Shown here: one piece after another, positions 27,590 through 35,287 of the stretch
Layout: every line of letters begins with the position of its first letter
How positions within the stretch are numbered: the stretch's first letter is position 1
Assembly (NCBI GenBank): GCA_905480595.1
Contig: CAJQQY010000453.1
Span: forward strand, 1 to 35,287
Source of the DNA: an uncultured Saprospiraceae bacterium
Lineage (GTDB): Bacteria; Bacteroidota; Bacteroidia; Chitinophagales; Saprospiraceae
Direction: 5' to 3'
Length of the DNA: 35,287 bases
Position numbers and translations under genes: made by a program
Notes under the pieces: model-generated
The model's database searches: none
Seen by the model: only the letters and a program-made list of their open reading frames with translations
Told to the model about the DNA's origin: nothing

Positions 27590-29971
27590 ATGACCATTAA
27601 TAAACCTGCTATAATATTTAAAAATGATGTTTTTGATCCAAGTTGTCCAAAAGGACAATCTATAATCGAAGAAATGAAGAAGTTTCCCTATCCTACGAAA
27701 CTAAGTTTTGTGCCTTTGATCGAATATTGGGAAGGTCTTCTGGAAAATGGAGAACTGGATGAAAGAGTAATTGCTCGGGAAGTATTTAAGCAATTAGATA
27801 AATATCCTTTTTTCAATGAACTGATAGAAGATGAGTCTATTTTGGAAAAATATCCTGAAGTAGTAAATCTTCTTTTAAGTGGGTTTTTTCCTTCCATTCA
27901 GCGAAAGAAATTATTGGGAGCAGCACACAAACCATTCTTCATGGAGCCATTTTTCAGGACTCCTGCCATGCTTGATTTTTTAAGTGCTGGTCGACTCAAT
28001 ATTCATTTTGACATGGAAATGGTGGAGGCAAAAAAAATGGGAATTATCAAGGCTTGTAGCTTTATTTTAAATCAACATTATGGACAAAAATTAGATATAA
28101 ATCCTTCTTTTATTTACACTTTAGAAATTGAAGGGACTTCAAAAATTGGACATTACAAATCTCTATCTGATAAACAATTCGTTGAGGTAATTCCTACTAA
28201 GCCTCTTAAAAAAATTACACAAGAACAAATTAATCAACTACTTCGAAATGTTTATGACTCAGAGCTTTGGTTAAAAATGTTACCACCTGAAAACTTCGAA
28301 TTTCAAGGTATTGGATTAGAGCGTTTAATAAACATTACCGCCGAAGAGACTCTCTCTAAAATGAAATATAAATTATTAGAGAAAGATGCCATTGTCAAAC
28401 CTGAGAATATAAAAGAACTTGAAAAAGACTTAAAAACATATTTTGATATTCCTGATTTATTGTTGGGAATTACTGCTTTAGATTATCCTTCCAAGTTTGA
28501 AGTTTCACATCGCTATAAAATTCGATATGATTTTTTAGCAGAAAAACATGAGAACATATTAAGTGAAAATAATCACGATTCACTCTATGAAAAAGTTTGT
28601 AAATGGAATACAGAAATGATCATTGAGGATTTGAGTACATATGATGATGGAACTTCATTTCCAAAAGATTTAATAAAAGAAGGAATCAAAAGTATTATCG
28701 TTACTCCTTTAGTAAATAAAGATAATCGTGTGATTGGCATTTTAGAAATTGGCGCTCCTAAAGCATTCCAATTAACCAGTTTTCATAAGTTAAAATTAAA
28801 AGCCGTTGCTCCATTATTTTCCATGTCCTTACTTCGAAGCCGTGAGGAAATTGACAATCGGATTGAAGCAATTATGCGGGAAGAATTTACAGCCATGCAT
28901 CCAAGTGTAGAATGGAAATTTATCGAAGAAGCTTTTGAAATCATGGAAAAAAGAGAGGATGATCCAGATTATTCCAATATGAATCCAATCGGTTTTGAAA
29001 ATATTTATCCTCTGTATGGTCAAGCTGATATCGTTGGTTCATCTCATCTAAGAAATATTTCTATTCAAGCTGATTTAATTGCAAATTTAAATTTGATTAA
29101 AAATGTTTTTTCAGTTGCTGTCAAACACATCACATTTCCTTTGCTAGATCTAAAATTATCTGAGGTAGAAAAAAATATAAAATCTATTCGAAAGGGAATT
29201 ACTTCTGATGACGAAACCAGAGTTCTAGAATTTATCAAAAATGAAATTCATCCTTTATTCGAAGAAATAAAAAATCGGAATCCAGAAATTCGAGCAGAAA
29301 TAATAACCTATTATAAAAAATTGGATCCTAATTTTGGATTCCTTTATCAGGATCGGAAAAAATATGAAGAAAGTGTCGCGAAAATAAATGACATGATTTC
29401 GTGGGTTCTTAATGATGCTGAAAAAGAAGGACAAAAAATGATTCCACATTATTTTGATGAATACAAAACTGATGGCGTTGAGTATGATATTTATACAGGC
29501 CAATCACTTTTAAAACAAGGAAACTTTAATGAAATTCATTTGCATAATTTACGTTTATGGCAACTGATGACAATGGTCGAAGTGACTCGAAAAGTAGAAA
29601 AACTAAAAGCAACCTTGGAAGTTCCCTTGGATACTGCTCAACTTATTTTCGTTTATGGGAATCCACTCTCGATTGTTTTTAGATTGGATGAAAAAAGGTT
29701 TGATGTAGATGGAGCATACAATGTTCGATATGAGATCATCAAAAAACGAATTGACAAAGCGACAATCGAAGGAACAGGCGAACGATTAACGGTCAAAGGA
29801 AAAATCGCAATAGCTTATACTTCTGAAAAAGATAAAGTGGAGTATTTAGGGTACCTCAATTTTTTAAAAGAAAAAAAATACATATCTGGAGAAATTGAAG
29901 ACTTAGCACTTGCTAAAATGCAAGGGGTCGAAGGACTAAGAGCTTTACGAGTTACAGTTGAGATGAATTAA
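27590..29971 (+). CDS. GAF-domain protein, cytoplasmic (793 aa)
   Basis: There is no signal peptide or membrane segment. A GAF-like sensory domain lies at about 270-420: GIKSIIVTPLVNKDNRVIG (from residue 365), then ILEIGAPKAFQLTSFHKLKL with the typical closing strand and helix. The N-terminal 250 residues and the long helical C-terminal part (450-793) are unfamiliar; the latter includes SIQADLIANLNLIKNVFSVA and a last domain with YNVRYEIIKKRIDKATIEGT, DKVEYLGYLNFLKEKKYISG. No kinase, cyclase (GGDEF or class III) or phosphodiesterase motif is seen. GAF domains often bind cyclic nucleotides or other small molecules. The DUF5706 membrane protein follows after 70 bases in the same direction, so the two may form a signalling pair. 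Confidence 0.75.
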   Translation: MTINKPAIIFKNDVFDPSCPKGQSIIEEMKKFPYPTKLSFVPLIEYWEGLLENGELDERVIAREVFKQLDKYPFFNELIEDESILEKYPEVVNLLLSGFFPSIQRKKLLGAAHKPFFMEPFFRTPAMLDFLSAGRLNIHFDMEMVEAKKMGIIKACSFILNQHYGQKLDINPSFIYTLEIEGTSKIGHYKSLSDKQFVEVIPTKPLKKITQEQINQLLRNVYDSELWLKMLPPENFEFQGIGLERLINITAEETLSKMKYKLLEKDAIVKPENIKELEKDLKTYFDIPDLLLGITALDYPSKFEVSHRYKIRYDFLAEKHENILSENNHDSLYEKVCKWNTEMIIEDLSTYDDGTSFPKDLIKEGIKSIIVTPLVNKDNRVIGILEIGAPKAFQLTSFHKLKLKAVAPLFSMSLLRSREEIDNRIEAIMREEFTAMHPSVEWKFIEEAFEIMEKREDDPDYSNMNPIGFENIYPLYGQADIVGSSHLRNISIQADLIANLNLIKNVFSVAVKHITFPLLDLKLSEVEKNIKSIRKGITSDDETRVLEFIKNEIHPLFEEIKNRNPEIRAEIITYYKKLDPNFGFLYQDRKKYEESVAKINDMISWVLNDAEKEGQKMIPHYFDEYKTDGVEYDIYTGQSLLKQGNFNEIHLHNLRLWQLMTMVEVTRKVEKLKATLEVPLDTAQLIFVYGNPLSIVFRLDEKRFDVDGAYNVRYEIIKKRIDKATIEGTGERLTVKGKIAIAYTSEKDKVEYLGYLNFLKEKKYISGEIEDLALAKMQGVEGLRALRVTVEMN

Positions 29972-30041: not shown

Positions 30042-30671
30042 ATGGAAGAGTTGAATTCTGAAAAACCTCAAATGGAAAATCTAGGAAAAAAGGAGAAAAA
30101 AGAGAAAAAGAAAAAAAAGAAAAATACTTCTGGTGGTTTGGTTGACAGTAGCAAAGGAGCTCAGGTAATGTTCAAAACTGCCCTTCGTAATCATATCGAC
30201 CTCACTAATATTGCTGATAATAAAGCCAATATTATTCTTACGATCAATGCAATTATTATCACAATTGCATTACCCTTACTGTCTACCTACGCAGCTACAA
30301 ATCATCATTTATACGTCCCCGCATTTTTTTTACTGAGTACAAATATGGCAAGTATTGTTTATGGAGCCTTAGTCACTCGCCCAGTTAAAATGCAGGGAAC
30401 CACTCCATTGCATAAGATAAAGGAAGGACGATCTAATCTTTTCTTTTTTGGAAACTTTTACAATATGTCAATTGAAGATTATCGAAAAGGAGTAACTGAA
30501 ATAATTTCTGATGAAGACTTATTAGATAAGGTAATTATGACTGATTTATATTATTTGGGGCAAGCACTTGGGAAAAAATATGAATTGCTTCGAACTTGTT
30601 ATACAGTATTTATGATCGGAATGATTTTAACGGTGGTGACATTTGTGATTGCCTTTTTTACGGCTCATTAG
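30042..30671 (+). CDS. DUF5706 membrane protein, Pycsar-effector-like (209 aa)
   Basis: After a lysine-rich cytoplasmic leader (residues 16-27 are nearly all Lys) comes ALRNHIDLTNIADNKANIIL leading into the first membrane helix. This ADxKAxxxLxxN block is the signature of the DUF5706 family, which includes the membrane effector (PycTM) of the Pycsar anti-phage system. Predicted membrane helices lie at about 62-83, 90-111 and 186-207, with a cytoplasmic helical segment between. In Pycsar the effector is paired with a uridylate or cytidylate cyclase; no cyclase is present in this window, and many Bacteroidota carry DUF5706 proteins outside defence loci. The neighbour is a GAF-domain protein. 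It ends on a 28-base palindrome. Confidence 0.8.
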   Translation: MEELNSEKPQMENLGKKEKKEKKKKKKNTSGGLVDSSKGAQVMFKTALRNHIDLTNIADNKANIILTINAIIITIALPLLSTYAATNHHLYVPAFFLLSTNMASIVYGALVTRPVKMQGTTPLHKIKEGRSNLFFFGNFYNMSIEDYRKGVTEIISDEDLLDKVIMTDLYYLGQALGKKYELLRTCYTVFMIGMILTVVTFVIAFFTAH

Positions 30672-31681: not shown

Positions 31682-32725
31682 ATGAAACATATTCTTTGTA
31701 TTTTACTTCTTTTGTTCGGGAATTCTACATATTCTCAAGTCAAACCAGATTTATTTCCAGAAGATTTACTAGAAAACGATCTTGAAGTCCGATGTTATTG
31801 TTCTCCAGGTGTATATAATAAATCCAAATCTCGGGGAGTCGTCCTTAGTTACGGCTGGATGAATGGAGGAACCTTTAATGAACAAGATTATCCGTTCACC
31901 AATCAATTAAGTAAATACAGTAGATTAGAAAGCTTAGAATTTAAACTAAAAGCTCCCTTGGTGCTTAAAGATAATTTTAAACTTCTTATAGGTTATCAAT
32001 ATTTTTCTGAAAATTTCAGTTTTAAAAACGTAGGTGAAGACTTTAATCCAGTTTTTAGTGAACTAAAGAATGAACGATTGAAGAGTAATTCATTAAGTCT
32101 TATTGTTTCCAAACCTATCGATGAAACCAGGTATTTAGCTTTTCGAGTTAAATATACTTCCAGCGGAGATTACAATAATTATTTTTCTTTCAATGATAGA
32201 TATGCCATTTATAAATTCTTAGGATTGTACGCTTTCAAACCTAATGAAGATTTGGAATGGGGAATTGGATTAGCTCTTTCCAAAAGCTTTAGAAGAAATA
32301 ATATCCTTCCATTTATTCTTTATAATAAAAATTTCAATAAACATTGGGGTATCGAAGCTGTTTTGCCTGGGGTGATATTTGGACGATATAATTTTAATCC
32401 ATCCAACTTATTATTATTTGGAGCGGAATACAATAGTGAAAGTTATCGCATTGATATCAATGAAGATTCTATGCTTACCCCACTAGATTATGCCTATAAC
32501 CATTCGGAAATAATTCTTTCTGGAAGATGGGAACATCGATTTACACCATGGGTTTGGGGAAGCATAAAGGCAGGATATCAGTTTAATTTCAGTAGCGAAT
32601 TTGAAGCAAAAAATATTTCCACCGATGAGTTTAATACTAATCCAACGGGTTCTCCTTTTTTTAACATCAGCATTTTCGTTTCGCCTCCAAAAGAGGAACT
32701 AGAACATACTCATAAGAAAAAATAG
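31682..32725 (+). CDS. Outer-membrane beta-barrel candidate, DUF6268-like (347 aa)
   Basis: Signal peptide MKHILCILLLLFGNSTYSQ, then a mature part made of amphipathic strands: RGVVLSYGWMNGGTF, LESLEFKLKAPLVLKDNFKL, LIGYQYFSENFSF, LAFRVKYTSSGDYNNYFSF, WGSIKAGYQFNFSSEFE and a final FFNISIFVS strand. The order and tone match the DUF6268 family of Bacteroidota outer-membrane proteins, but I cannot confirm the match. The His/Lys tail HTHKKK after the last strand is unusual for a barrel. It reads in the same direction as the large phosphoesterase-type gene, 40 bases upstream of it, and could share its transcript. Confidence 0.7.
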   Translation: MKHILCILLLLFGNSTYSQVKPDLFPEDLLENDLEVRCYCSPGVYNKSKSRGVVLSYGWMNGGTFNEQDYPFTNQLSKYSRLESLEFKLKAPLVLKDNFKLLIGYQYFSENFSFKNVGEDFNPVFSELKNERLKSNSLSLIVSKPIDETRYLAFRVKYTSSGDYNNYFSFNDRYAIYKFLGLYAFKPNEDLEWGIGLALSKSFRRNNILPFILYNKNFNKHWGIEAVLPGVIFGRYNFNPSNLLLFGAEYNSESYRIDINEDSMLTPLDYAYNHSEIILSGRWEHRFTPWVWGSIKAGYQFNFSSEFEAKNISTDEFNTNPTGSPFFNISIFVSPPKEELEHTHKKK

Positions 32726-32765: not shown

Positions 32766-35287
32766 ATGGATTCAATTAAACATACTATTATTTTCCTTTT
32801 TATTGTAAGCTTAAGTTTTTCATCACAAGGGCAACAAAAAAAAGATTACAAACATCAAGTCTTTTTGACTGGAAATATTTGTGATGCAGTTTCAGATGAA
32901 GGTTTTTACACTTCGCTTGAAATTACTTTGAAAAATACTCAACAACCTTACTCCTTGATTTTAAATGGAGATTTGACTGATGCAAAATATGGTTCAAAAA
33001 AATGGATTGCTCAAATAAAGCGGATTAAATTTTTAATAAAAACCGTTGAGAAAAATCCAAAAGGAAAAATCATTTTAATTGCTGGTGATCGAGATTGGAA
33101 CAGCAGTCGAAAAGGCGGACAAAAGCAATTTGGGAAATTAGAAAAAGAATTAAAATCATTTATCAAAGACAATAACTATAAACGAACTGAATGGACCAAC
33201 AAAAAAGGATGCCCTGGTCCAGACACCTATGACTTGGATGAATCTTTACTTTTGATTGTCGCAAATTCTCAATGGTGGAATCATCCCTTTGATAAACCAA
33301 GATCGGAGGATGGGCTCTGTACCGTAATCACAGGGGAAGATTTTGCAGAAGAATTAGAAAGCGAAGTAAAAGAGAATCAAGACAAAAATATTATCATTGC
33401 TGGACATCATCCGGTTGTATCATTTGGGAATTATGGTGGTCATTTTTCCTTCTTTGATCACTTAAAACCATTCCCAATTATTGGAAGTTTTAAAACTGCT
33501 TTTCATAAAAACATTGGCACACCTAAAGATCTTTCAAATGAACACTTGCATGAATATCGAGAAGAGTTGATTAACCTTTTCTTTTTCCATAAAAATTTAG
33601 TTTATGTTTCAAGTCATGAAAAAAACCAACAGATTGTTCGAGTAGGAGAAAATTACACCATCAATTCTGGAGCGCCTTCAAAAGGTAAATACGCAGCTCA
33701 GCATGAAAATGCTCTGGTAAGTTCTTCGAAAGCAGGCATCATCGTTTTGAACTATTTTGATTCTGGAAAAATCGAATCTACTTTTTGGGAAAGAAATAAT
33801 GAGGAATTAAAGGCTAAAGAAAATCATTTGCTATGTCTTTCCTCTTGCATCGAAGGAAATCTAAATGCAGGAAATACTCCAGTCAATTATTCCTATTCAC
33901 CTTGTCTTTCCAAAGGACAAGCCACCAAGAAAATGAGTCGAACTTATCCAGACACCATTGCAATTGCTGGCCCAGAATATAAAAGTGGAGGCTGGAAAAA
34001 AGCATGGCTAGGAAAACATTATCGGTCCACTTGGACACAACCTGTTAAAGTTCCTTCTTTAGATTTAGACAATACTTATGGTGGACTAACTATCTATAAA
34101 AAAGGAGGAGGCCGCCAAACGACTTCTCTTAAATTTAAAGCAACTGACGGCACTCAATACACATTTCGTTCTGTCAACAAAGATCCTTCGAAGGCTTTTA
34201 ATTACACCTTGCGACCGACATTCATCACTCCCCTGATGCGTGATCAAACTTCAACTCAAAGTCCATATGGTGCTATGGCTGTTGCCGCACTTTTGGATGA
34301 AATCGATATCCTTCACGCCACGCCCAAATTATATCTTTTACCCGATGATCCTAAGTTAGGCGCGTTCCAAAAAAGATATGGCAACCTCCTTGGGATGCTC
34401 GAAGACAACCCAAGCAAGCCAAATGATGCAGGGGAAGTTTTTGGTGGAGCGGATAAAATTTATCAAAGTAATAAGCTGTATAAAAAATTGTATGAATCTC
34501 GAAAAAATCGAATTGATGAAAAAGAATTTATCAAAGCGAGAGTTTTCGACATGTTGATTGGAGACTGGAGTAAGCATGAAGACAATTGGAAATGGGCTAG
34601 ATATGACAAGGAAGATGGATATTACTTTAGACCAATTCCTCGAGATCGAGATCATACTTTTTCATTGCAAGATGGAATTATTCCATGGATCGCCAATCGA
34701 AGTTGGGCCATCAAAAATATTGAGACTTTTAGCTATGATTTAAAGAAAAAAGAGTTGCGTAGTTTGATGTATCAAGCCATTCATATGGATCGATTTTTAT
34801 CAACAACTGGAACTCGCGAAGATTGGTTAGCAGCTGCTAGAAGTATTCAAGAAAATATTTCAGAAGAAGAAATTGACCAAGCCGTTTTAAAAATGCCACT
34901 CGAAATTCAAGAAACTTCAGGAAAAACTATTGCCAAAAAACTTAAATCTCGGATCAAGCATTTGGAAAAATATGCAGGCTGGTATTATGATTACTTGGCA
35001 GAATATGTTGATGTTATTGGTTCTAATAAAGCTGAATATTTTGAAATTACACGAATGGATGATGGAAATGTCAATCTTAAAATTTTCAATGAAAAGAAAA
35101 ATAAAAAAGGTAACAAGCTTTATTACGAAAGAACTTTTTATCCAAAAGAAACTAAGGAATTAAGAATTTATGGATTGGGAGGAGATGATATTTTTGACAT
35201 TAAAGGTGATGGTAAATCGAAAATAGTTATTCGCGTTTTAGGGAACTCAGGTGATGATCTTTTTAAAGATGAAGCAAAATCTTCGAA
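32766..35287 (+). CDS. Large secreted protein: degenerate metallophosphoesterase domain plus kinase-like motif (partial at right edge)
   Basis: The frame opens at the ATG at 32766 and stays open to the last base (840 codons visible). Signal peptide: IIFLFIVSLSFSSQG. Residues about 30-300 follow the calcineurin-like phosphoesterase pattern: TGNICD (35-40), LNGDLTDA (66-73), IAGDRDW (105-111), AGHHPV...GGH (212-226) and SSHEKNQQ (282-289). Several metal ligands are altered: Asn37 for Asp, GDRD for GNHD, SH for GH. Residues 594-630 contain FDMLIGDWSKHEDNW and PIPRDRDHTF, which resemble the catalytic loop and metal-binding Asp of atypical kinases (CotH, FAM20, HipA or PI4K types). LRIYGLGGDDIFDIKGDG near 795-815 is the kind of segment that precedes an outer-membrane barrel in related Bacteroidota proteins, so a barrel is expected beyond the window. 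Confidence 0.82.
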   Translation, partial: MDSIKHTIIFLFIVSLSFSSQGQQKKDYKHQVFLTGNICDAVSDEGFYTSLEITLKNTQQPYSLILNGDLTDAKYGSKKWIAQIKRIKFLIKTVEKNPKGKIILIAGDRDWNSSRKGGQKQFGKLEKELKSFIKDNNYKRTEWTNKKGCPGPDTYDLDESLLLIVANSQWWNHPFDKPRSEDGLCTVITGEDFAEELESEVKENQDKNIIIAGHHPVVSFGNYGGHFSFFDHLKPFPIIGSFKTAFHKNIGTPKDLSNEHLHEYREELINLFFFHKNLVYVSSHEKNQQIVRVGENYTINSGAPSKGKYAAQHENALVSSSKAGIIVLNYFDSGKIESTFWERNNEELKAKENHLLCLSSCIEGNLNAGNTPVNYSYSPCLSKGQATKKMSRTYPDTIAIAGPEYKSGGWKKAWLGKHYRSTWTQPVKVPSLDLDNTYGGLTIYKKGGGRQTTSLKFKATDGTQYTFRSVNKDPSKAFNYTLRPTFITPLMRDQTSTQSPYGAMAVAALLDEIDILHATPKLYLLPDDPKLGAFQKRYGNLLGMLEDNPSKPNDAGEVFGGADKIYQSNKLYKKLYESRKNRIDEKEFIKARVFDMLIGDWSKHEDNWKWARYDKEDGYYFRPIPRDRDHTFSLQDGIIPWIANRSWAIKNIETFSYDLKKKELRSLMYQAIHMDRFLSTTGTREDWLAAARSIQENISEEEIDQAVLKMPLEIQETSGKTIAKKLKSRIKHLEKYAGWYYDYLAEYVDVIGSNKAEYFEITRMDDGNVNLKIFNEKKNKKGNKLYYERTFYPKETKELRIYGLGGDDIFDIKGDGKSKIVIRVLGNSGDDLFKDEAKSS

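Follow-up and report, generated by a model that had tools for sequence, protein, structure and literature searches.

The gene that closes the window (the whole stretch of DNA analyzed, 35,287 nucleotides from an uncultured Saprospiraceae bacterium) encodes a protein built from four parts in the order purple-acid-phosphatase–like domain, kinase-fold domain, β-linker, and Omp85 barrel. Judged from sequence and structural models, this copy is predicted to be a double pseudoenzyme that is maintained, and it quite plausibly works together with an intact paralogue, in the manner of Fam20A and Fam20C. To our knowledge, few bacterial kinase-fold domains are extracytoplasmic, and little is understood about them. 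The domain found here, which is common in the phylum and missed by Pfam, is fused to a phosphatase fold and to a barrel of the outer membrane. Catalytically degenerate copies recur and sit in genomes also holding intact copies, which makes a bacterial secreted kinase–pseudokinase partnership directly testable.

The ORF at 32766–35285 on the + strand comprises 840 amino acids, and its 3′ end is open at the contig end. The contig of the window (C453) shares an exact overlap of 141 bases with contig C312 of the same genome, and the joined frame stays open to yield a full protein of 1,231 amino acids. A relative with 85% identity (L007) shows the same gene order on a single unbroken contig, which supports the join. 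The features are as follows.

32766..35287, + strand: predicted pseudo-phosphatase/pseudokinase/Omp85 gene, first 840 codons (ORF, overlap with C312, order in L007)
32766..32834, + strand: signal peptide-like N terminus, about residues 1–23 (sequence reading alone)
32853..33800, + strand: purple-acid-phosphatase–like domain, about residues 30–345 (Pfam PF00149, L007 model, motif counts)
32874, 33087, and 33615: changed phosphatase positions N37, D108–R109, and K286 beside the kept H284, respectively
32973, 33405, and 33615: kept phosphatase positions D70, H214–H215, and H284, respectively
33954..35003, + strand: kinase-fold domain, about residues 397–746 (AlphaFold2 model, Foldseek and VIA-align matches)
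34101..34130, + strand: G-rich loop KGGGRQTTSL, residues 446–455 (conserved in the family)
34167..34181, + strand: R468-S-V-N-K472 at the place of the β3 Lys (near-invariant in the family)
34548..34595, + strand: catalytic-loop region, residues 595–610 (hhalign to CotH and HipA alignments, family counts)
34569–34571, + strand: Ser602, at the position expected to hold the catalytic Asp (same hhalign alignments and family counts)
34644..34652, + strand: D627-R-D629, equivalent of the DFG Asp (hhalign, conservation; the CotH row reads IPYDYDNTF here)
35004..35285, + strand: start of the β-rich linker (GLGGDD repeats) toward the barrel (models)
31682..32725, + strand: upstream DUF6268 gene, kept in L007 (Pfam)
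30042..30671, + strand: PycTM-like gene with two transmembrane segments, whose homologues often lie near family members across the phylum (PF18967, PADLOC, linkage)

The motif residues named in the earlier note are all found in this ORF, which reads, residue by residue, N37; D108-R109-D110; S283-H284-E-K286; D595-M-L-I-G-D600-W-S602-K-H604-E-D-N607-W-K-W610; and R626-D627-R-D629-H630. A chance occurrence of the motifs is ruled out by the conserved family and by a Pfam Metallophos match above the cut-off. By sequence, the window protein has no match in NCBIfam or the PDB, the family profile has none in the PDB either, and a scan of viral contigs found no relative. PADLOC gives a weak match to PDC-M03A (E 2.5e-5) at residues 562–624.

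The phosphatase domain is the only part of the window protein that Pfam recognizes above the cut-off (PF00149, residues 56–226, 23.2 bits versus a cut-off of 21.5). Its fold was judged on the model of L007, which comprises 1,198 residues (pLDDT 88.7, pTM 0.84) and shows an α/β phosphoesterase domain, a kinase-like domain, a β-linker, and a barrel. Structural matches to the first part of this model include the purple acid phosphatase of humans (2bq8, Z 24.8, 259 residues aligned, 3.1 Å) and GAP50 (3tgh, Z 23.8). Hence, the domain has the metallophosphoesterase/purple acid phosphatase fold. The five metal-ligand motifs are complete in the neighboring paralogue L005 and incomplete in the window copy (N37, D108–R109, K286), so that the altered phosphatase described earlier is borne out: the Asp of motif I, the Asn-His of motif III, and the second His of motif V are gone.

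The kinase-fold domain of the window protein has no Pfam match. Across residues 346–840 of 49 members, Pfam returns scattered weak hits (best E 0.011); the CotH profile PF08757 matches 0 of the 49 at E ≤ 1, and HipA_C likewise has no match at E ≤ 1. The AlphaFold2 model of window residues 346–840 has a pLDDT of 90.2 and a pTM of 0.87. Searched with Foldseek, it retrieves CtkA (E 3.6e-5; TM-scores by target length of 0.50–0.57, rmsd 7.3–8.9 Å) and HipA (E 4.1e-5). In VIA-align, CotH 5jd9 (Z 14.7, 249 residues aligned, 4.1 Å) is tied by PI4KIIβ 4wtv (Z 14.7) and followed by CtkA (14.4) and HipA (11.9). These matches place the domain in the CotH/HipA/PI4KII group and support the earlier assignment of a kinase fold at this place. 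In the model, R468 and K472 sit at β3.

To locate the catalytic residue, the family domain was aligned by hhalign with CotH and HipA alignments built from the same phylum. The HipA loop N-x-D-D-H-x-K-N falls on D600-W-S602-K-H604-E-D-N607, and the CotH stretch G-x-W-D...IPYDYDNTF falls on G-D-W-S602...PIPRDRDHTF. Herein, the catalytic-type Asp of both rows corresponds to residue 602, which is Ser in the window, and D600 aligns with the Asn of the HipA row and the Ser of the CotH row. The metal-binding Asp following β8 (the DFG equivalent) is present, with D627/D629 aligned to the CotH DYD. HipA D309 is the Asp of its N-x-D-D-H motif, and the spacing of five residues from 602 to N607 matches that of other kinases; the ligand roles of CotH residues are likewise taken as background. 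D309 is the residue changed in PDB entry 3tpt, by its title. The hhalign probabilities are weak (32% for CotH and 3% for HipA, local). The scores reach 39.3 for CotH versus a maximum of 34.5 in 20 column shuffles and 26.3 for HipA versus a maximum of 21.0, with controls of 23.5 for the phosphatase and 15.3 for the barrel. The placement of residue 602 rests on the fold matches and the shared motif, the profile alignments being weak when taken alone. The earlier note had counted D600 as a member of its motif and had called this kinase live, which is probably wrong. The window domain is, from sequence and model, probably a pseudokinase devoid of the catalytic residue.

Across 395 genomes of the phylum, a profile search detects the kinase-fold domain in 146. 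It comes in three layouts: with phosphatase and barrel, with the barrel alone, and as a kinase-like domain alone. The family table holds 288 proteins of the loci that were read, one row per distinct kinase-domain sequence and fragments included. Asp602 is present in 187 of them. An intact phosphatase is accompanied by Asp602 in 92 proteins and by another residue in 0; with a degenerate phosphatase the numbers are 40 and 92, and with no phosphatase 55 and 9. The window protein belongs to the 92 proteins that combine Ser or Gly at 602 with a degenerate phosphatase, herein termed window type. Gaps at motif positions were scored as degenerate, which concerns 3 of the 92 window-type rows (residue 37) and 8 of the 40 degenerate-phosphatase rows with Asp602. 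The proportions are not natural ones, as 80 of the 92 stem from a search seeded with six peptides including KHEDNWKW. The 40 proteins with a degenerate phosphatase and Asp602 suggest that the phosphatase motifs can be lost before Asp602.

Within the window type, motif I carries Asn in 89 proteins and a gap in 3, the Asn of motif III is replaced by Asp in 91, and D70 and H214 are kept in all 92. All 92, the window protein among them, share D595, D600, D627, R628, D629, R468, K472, and E546. When the 92 window-type and 187 Asp602-type proteins are counted together and the 9 others left out, R468 is found in 277 of 279 and K472 in 278. E605, N607, W608, K609, and W610 are likewise found in 92 of 92 window-type proteins, whereas in the Asp602 type position 605 is variable and residue 607 is Gln in 176 of 187 proteins. 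Since KHEDNWKW served as a search seed, this loop conservation is partly selected for in the 80 proteins. The 11 window-type proteins found by profile keep D600, E605, N607, W608, K609, and W610, with slight changes at 603, 604, and 606. In a tree of 173 rows from which the loop columns were left out, the loss of Asp602 needs five changes, at least four of which are forced by starred branches. The window clade contains 47 rows, 41 without and 6 with Asp602; it represents one or two loss events, and comparisons across the family count related sequences. Two further Gly602 copies from the order sample (G573, G605) belong to the class with no phosphatase and occur alongside Asp602 copies.

The next gene on C312, 46 bases past the stop when counted to the first listed start, encodes a paralogue of 1,269 residues (L005) with the same domain architecture, in which every motif is intact. 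It begins like a lipoprotein (LPSC, by eye), and by a crude pattern such starts occur in 27 of 62 intact copies versus 1 of 83 window-type copies. A third paralogue of the same genome, of 1,232 residues on C211 (L006), combines a degenerate phosphatase with Asp602. The window gene itself is not a decayed pseudogene: compared with L007, dN is 0.089 and dS 1.09, the latter being near saturation, and the resulting dN/dS of about 0.08 indicates purifying selection and argues against decay.

Coexistence of the two types was followed in 32 of the 80 loci from the seeded search. Another family member is held by 29 of these 32 window-type carriers, each time including at least one with Asp602; no second member was seen in the other 3, which are MAG records (L016, L018, L040). 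In an order sample of 298 genomes, all 12 window-type carriers also contain an Asp602 copy, and 73 of the other 286 genomes hold any member (Fisher 1.6e-7, kinship ignored). Carriers of this sample were classed by score and sequence, the members of other genomes were read in part, and 4 of the 12 carriers appear also among the 32, by identical coordinates. At 20 loci, two members lie no more than 2 kb apart, and 14 of these pairs combine a dead with a live copy as judged by residue 602. Of the 14, 7 are from the window or from loci retrieved by using it as the query, and another 3 (L309, L311, L321) come from genomes picked as window-type carriers. The remaining 6 pairs (L133, L347–L351) have Asp602 in both members, so that a strict rule of one live and one dead neighbor is rejected. 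One member of L351 is devoid of R468, D627, and D629, and one of L350 of D629. A further pair lying 2.4 kb apart (L352) has Asp602 in both. In three Hymenobacter-like genomes (G387, G166, G072), the window-type copy does not adjoin the intact copy.

Other arrangements were seen along the way. Hymenobacter-like loci L122, L125, L309, L311, and L321 carry head-to-head, barrel-less kinase-like genes with DWDRH and DWSRR, respectively, a second live/dead pair that is separate on the tree. At L175:3267-5927, a member of 887 residues has almost all kinase motifs lost and adjoins one with Asp602 and the DRD motif. A CotH-family kinase gene flanks family members in L150, L165, and L147 (PF08757 E 8.1e-48 in L165).

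The outer-membrane barrel that the earlier note had expected beyond the window is seen after joining C312. The last part of the protein scores as ShlB (E 6.7e-7), and that of its neighbor as Omp85. In the L007 model, the barrel begins at residue 850 and has 16 long strands by our count; it matches BamA 8xnb with Z 24.9, and the best 50 Foldseek rows for the whole model are chains of BamA, TamA, and the SAM complex. An LRGF-type motif is present in the sequence. Hence, the barrel is of the 16-stranded Omp85 type. POTRA domains were found in none of six proteins tested, and residues 346–840 of 49 members give one weak hit (E 0.12). Because the strand number is even, both ends of such a barrel should face the periplasm, although the passenger of PlpD is released outside the cell (PMC4104836). 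A location on the cell surface, as proposed earlier, is thus unsupported.

The product of 30042–30671 matches PF18967 (E 2e-22, Pfam) and is called PycTM by PADLOC. A PycTM homologue is present in 133 of 395 genomes: 119 hold both it and the kinase-fold family, 27 the family alone, 14 PycTM alone, and 235 neither (Fisher 3e-57, kinship ignored). Where both occur and family coordinates are listed, the two lie within 10 kb on one contig in 96 of 115 genomes and not in 19. An earlier hand-picked set had given 30 of 32 within 10 kb, partly chosen after the locus flanks had been seen, and 8 of 32 genomes picked for having no family member hold a PycTM homologue. Of 63 PycTM-homologous ORFs, 41 are at least 300 residues long, and an N-terminal HD domain was found in 3 of 3 longer ones tested by Pfam. 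In G387, G166, and G072, PycTM lies beside the copy with all motifs intact and the window-type copy lies elsewhere, which ties this inner-membrane partner to the intact enzyme more than to the dead copy. The PycTM-like gene, a Pycsar effector by its Pfam name, has the look of a conserved module of the envelope rather than of a sporadic defense gene. It is possible, albeit tentative, that a large part of the Bacteroidota have an undescribed envelope-spanning phosphate-signaling module, in which an inner-membrane PycTM-like protein (often HD-PycTM) would act with the outer-membrane phosphatase–kinase–Omp85 protein; some lineages, that of the window among them, would have added a double-dead regulator copy, and dead copies would have arisen several times. 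Also in the window, 27590–29971 encodes a protein of 793 residues with no Pfam or NCBIfam match, homologues of which are found close to family members at 26 of 100 loci and in L007. L005:6959-8797, which lies roughly 1.8 kb downstream from the intact copy, is an ORF of 612 residues that reads as class-III-cyclase–like, and similar ORFs occur in just two other loci of those searched.

The loss of both sets of motifs while the Asp pair, R468, K472, E546, and most loop positions stay fixed points to a maintained double pseudoenzyme. The same fixed loop could be read as the mark of a different reaction, for instance AMP transfer or glutamylation via D600, D627, and D629, since it does not drift in any of the 92 window-type proteins and D600, D627, D629, R468, K472, and E546 are kept in 92 of 92. 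Pseudokinase-type AMP transfer has a precedent in SelO. SidJ is reported to be a pseudokinase with another activity. However, the seeding of 80 of the 92 with KHEDNWKW inflates the loop conservation, and a dependent partner is the better fit to the presence of an Asp602 copy in the same genomes. The joint loss with the phosphatase motifs can also be explained without a new chemistry, and we regard this reading as unlikely. A scaffold, or a role in outer-membrane assembly or secretion, in which the barrel works and both N-terminal domains are binding modules in all copies, is rather doubtful as well. The BamA/TamA-like barrel (8xnb, Z 24.9) and the match of the phosphatase part to GAP50 (Z 23.8), titled an anchor in the PDB, would fit it, but 92 proteins keep all five phosphatase motifs and Asp602, which pure scaffolds do not need, and POTRA domains are missing from the six proteins, with the single weak hit among the 49 members.

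The reading of the earlier note, in which a dead phosphatase and a live kinase are combined at the cell surface, is very improbable. The kinase fold, the DxD, and the D/H/N residues are real, and 40 of 288 relatives (8 with a motif gap), including the third paralogue L006, do combine a degenerate phosphatase with Asp602; the window, however, has Ser602 at the place of the catalytic Asp, and exposure at the surface lacks support. For a double pseudoenzyme with an intact partner, chances are about even. Against the partner stand the 3 of 32 carriers without a second member, the 6 of 20 pairs with Asp602 in both, and the nonadjacent copies in G387, G166, and G072. In this reading, the protein is a secreted outer-membrane member of the Omp85 superfamily carrying purple-acid-phosphatase–like and CotH/HipA/PI4KII-like modules ahead of the barrel. 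In the window copy, both modules are devoid of canonical catalytic residues, whereas R468, K472, E546, the Asp pair of the metal-binding type, and most loop positions are fixed. It would most likely bind L005 or another intact paralogue and would control the activity or position of the latter on the periplasmic face of the outer membrane. The intact form, too, may be something other than an ATP kinase, because ATP is presumably scarce in the periplasm.

Compared with mammalian-type purple acid phosphatases, the first domain has the same fold (Z 24.8), and the intact paralogues keep the motifs GDxG, GDNxY, GNH, HH, and GHxH of these enzymes; unlike them, the window copy is devoid of several metal-ligand positions. 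CotH kinases (PF08757) are a tied best structural match, and in the alignment their G-x-W-D and the subsequent IPxDxDxxF fall on the loop of the family and on PRDRD, but the window type, unlike CotH, has no Asp and is fused to a purple-acid-phosphatase–like domain and a barrel. HipA, CtkA, and PI4KII kinases share the fold, with N-x-D-D-H-x-x-N of HipA aligned to D-W-[DSG]-[RK]-H-x-x-[QN] of the family; they are cytosolic or host-acting proteins, unlike the family described here. Fam20A and Fam20C form a secreted kinase-fold pair in which an inactive copy coexists with an active paralogue, as proposed here. Fam20A binds ATP that is not hydrolyzed, and its complex with Fam20C raises Fam20C activity. 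The lost residue of Fam20A differs (Glu to Gln), and the animal protein has neither phosphatase nor barrel; a complex is demonstrated there, whereas coexistence and adjacency are read from sequence here.

The closest architecture in print is the "Metallo" subfamily of Heinz and Lithgow (2014), a PF00149–Omp85 fusion called a metalloprotease and listed among the non-POTRA architectures, and said to be conserved at genus level (PMC4104836). By domain content (PF00149 and Omp85 barrel) and not by the sequences of that article, the window protein falls into this subfamily. The pairing was considered little described by the earlier note: the fusion of phosphatase and Omp85 has been known since 2014, but the word kinase is absent from the main text of PMC4104836, and at the level of titles and listings, with subscription papers mostly outside the scope, a kinase domain in this setting was not found and is apparently not described. 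The subfamily shares with the present family the PF00149 domain ahead of the Omp85 barrel and, as far as its published text goes, was listed without a function. Here, a kinase-fold domain, present in 146 of the 395 genomes searched in the phylum, is placed between the two, which provides a lead to that function.
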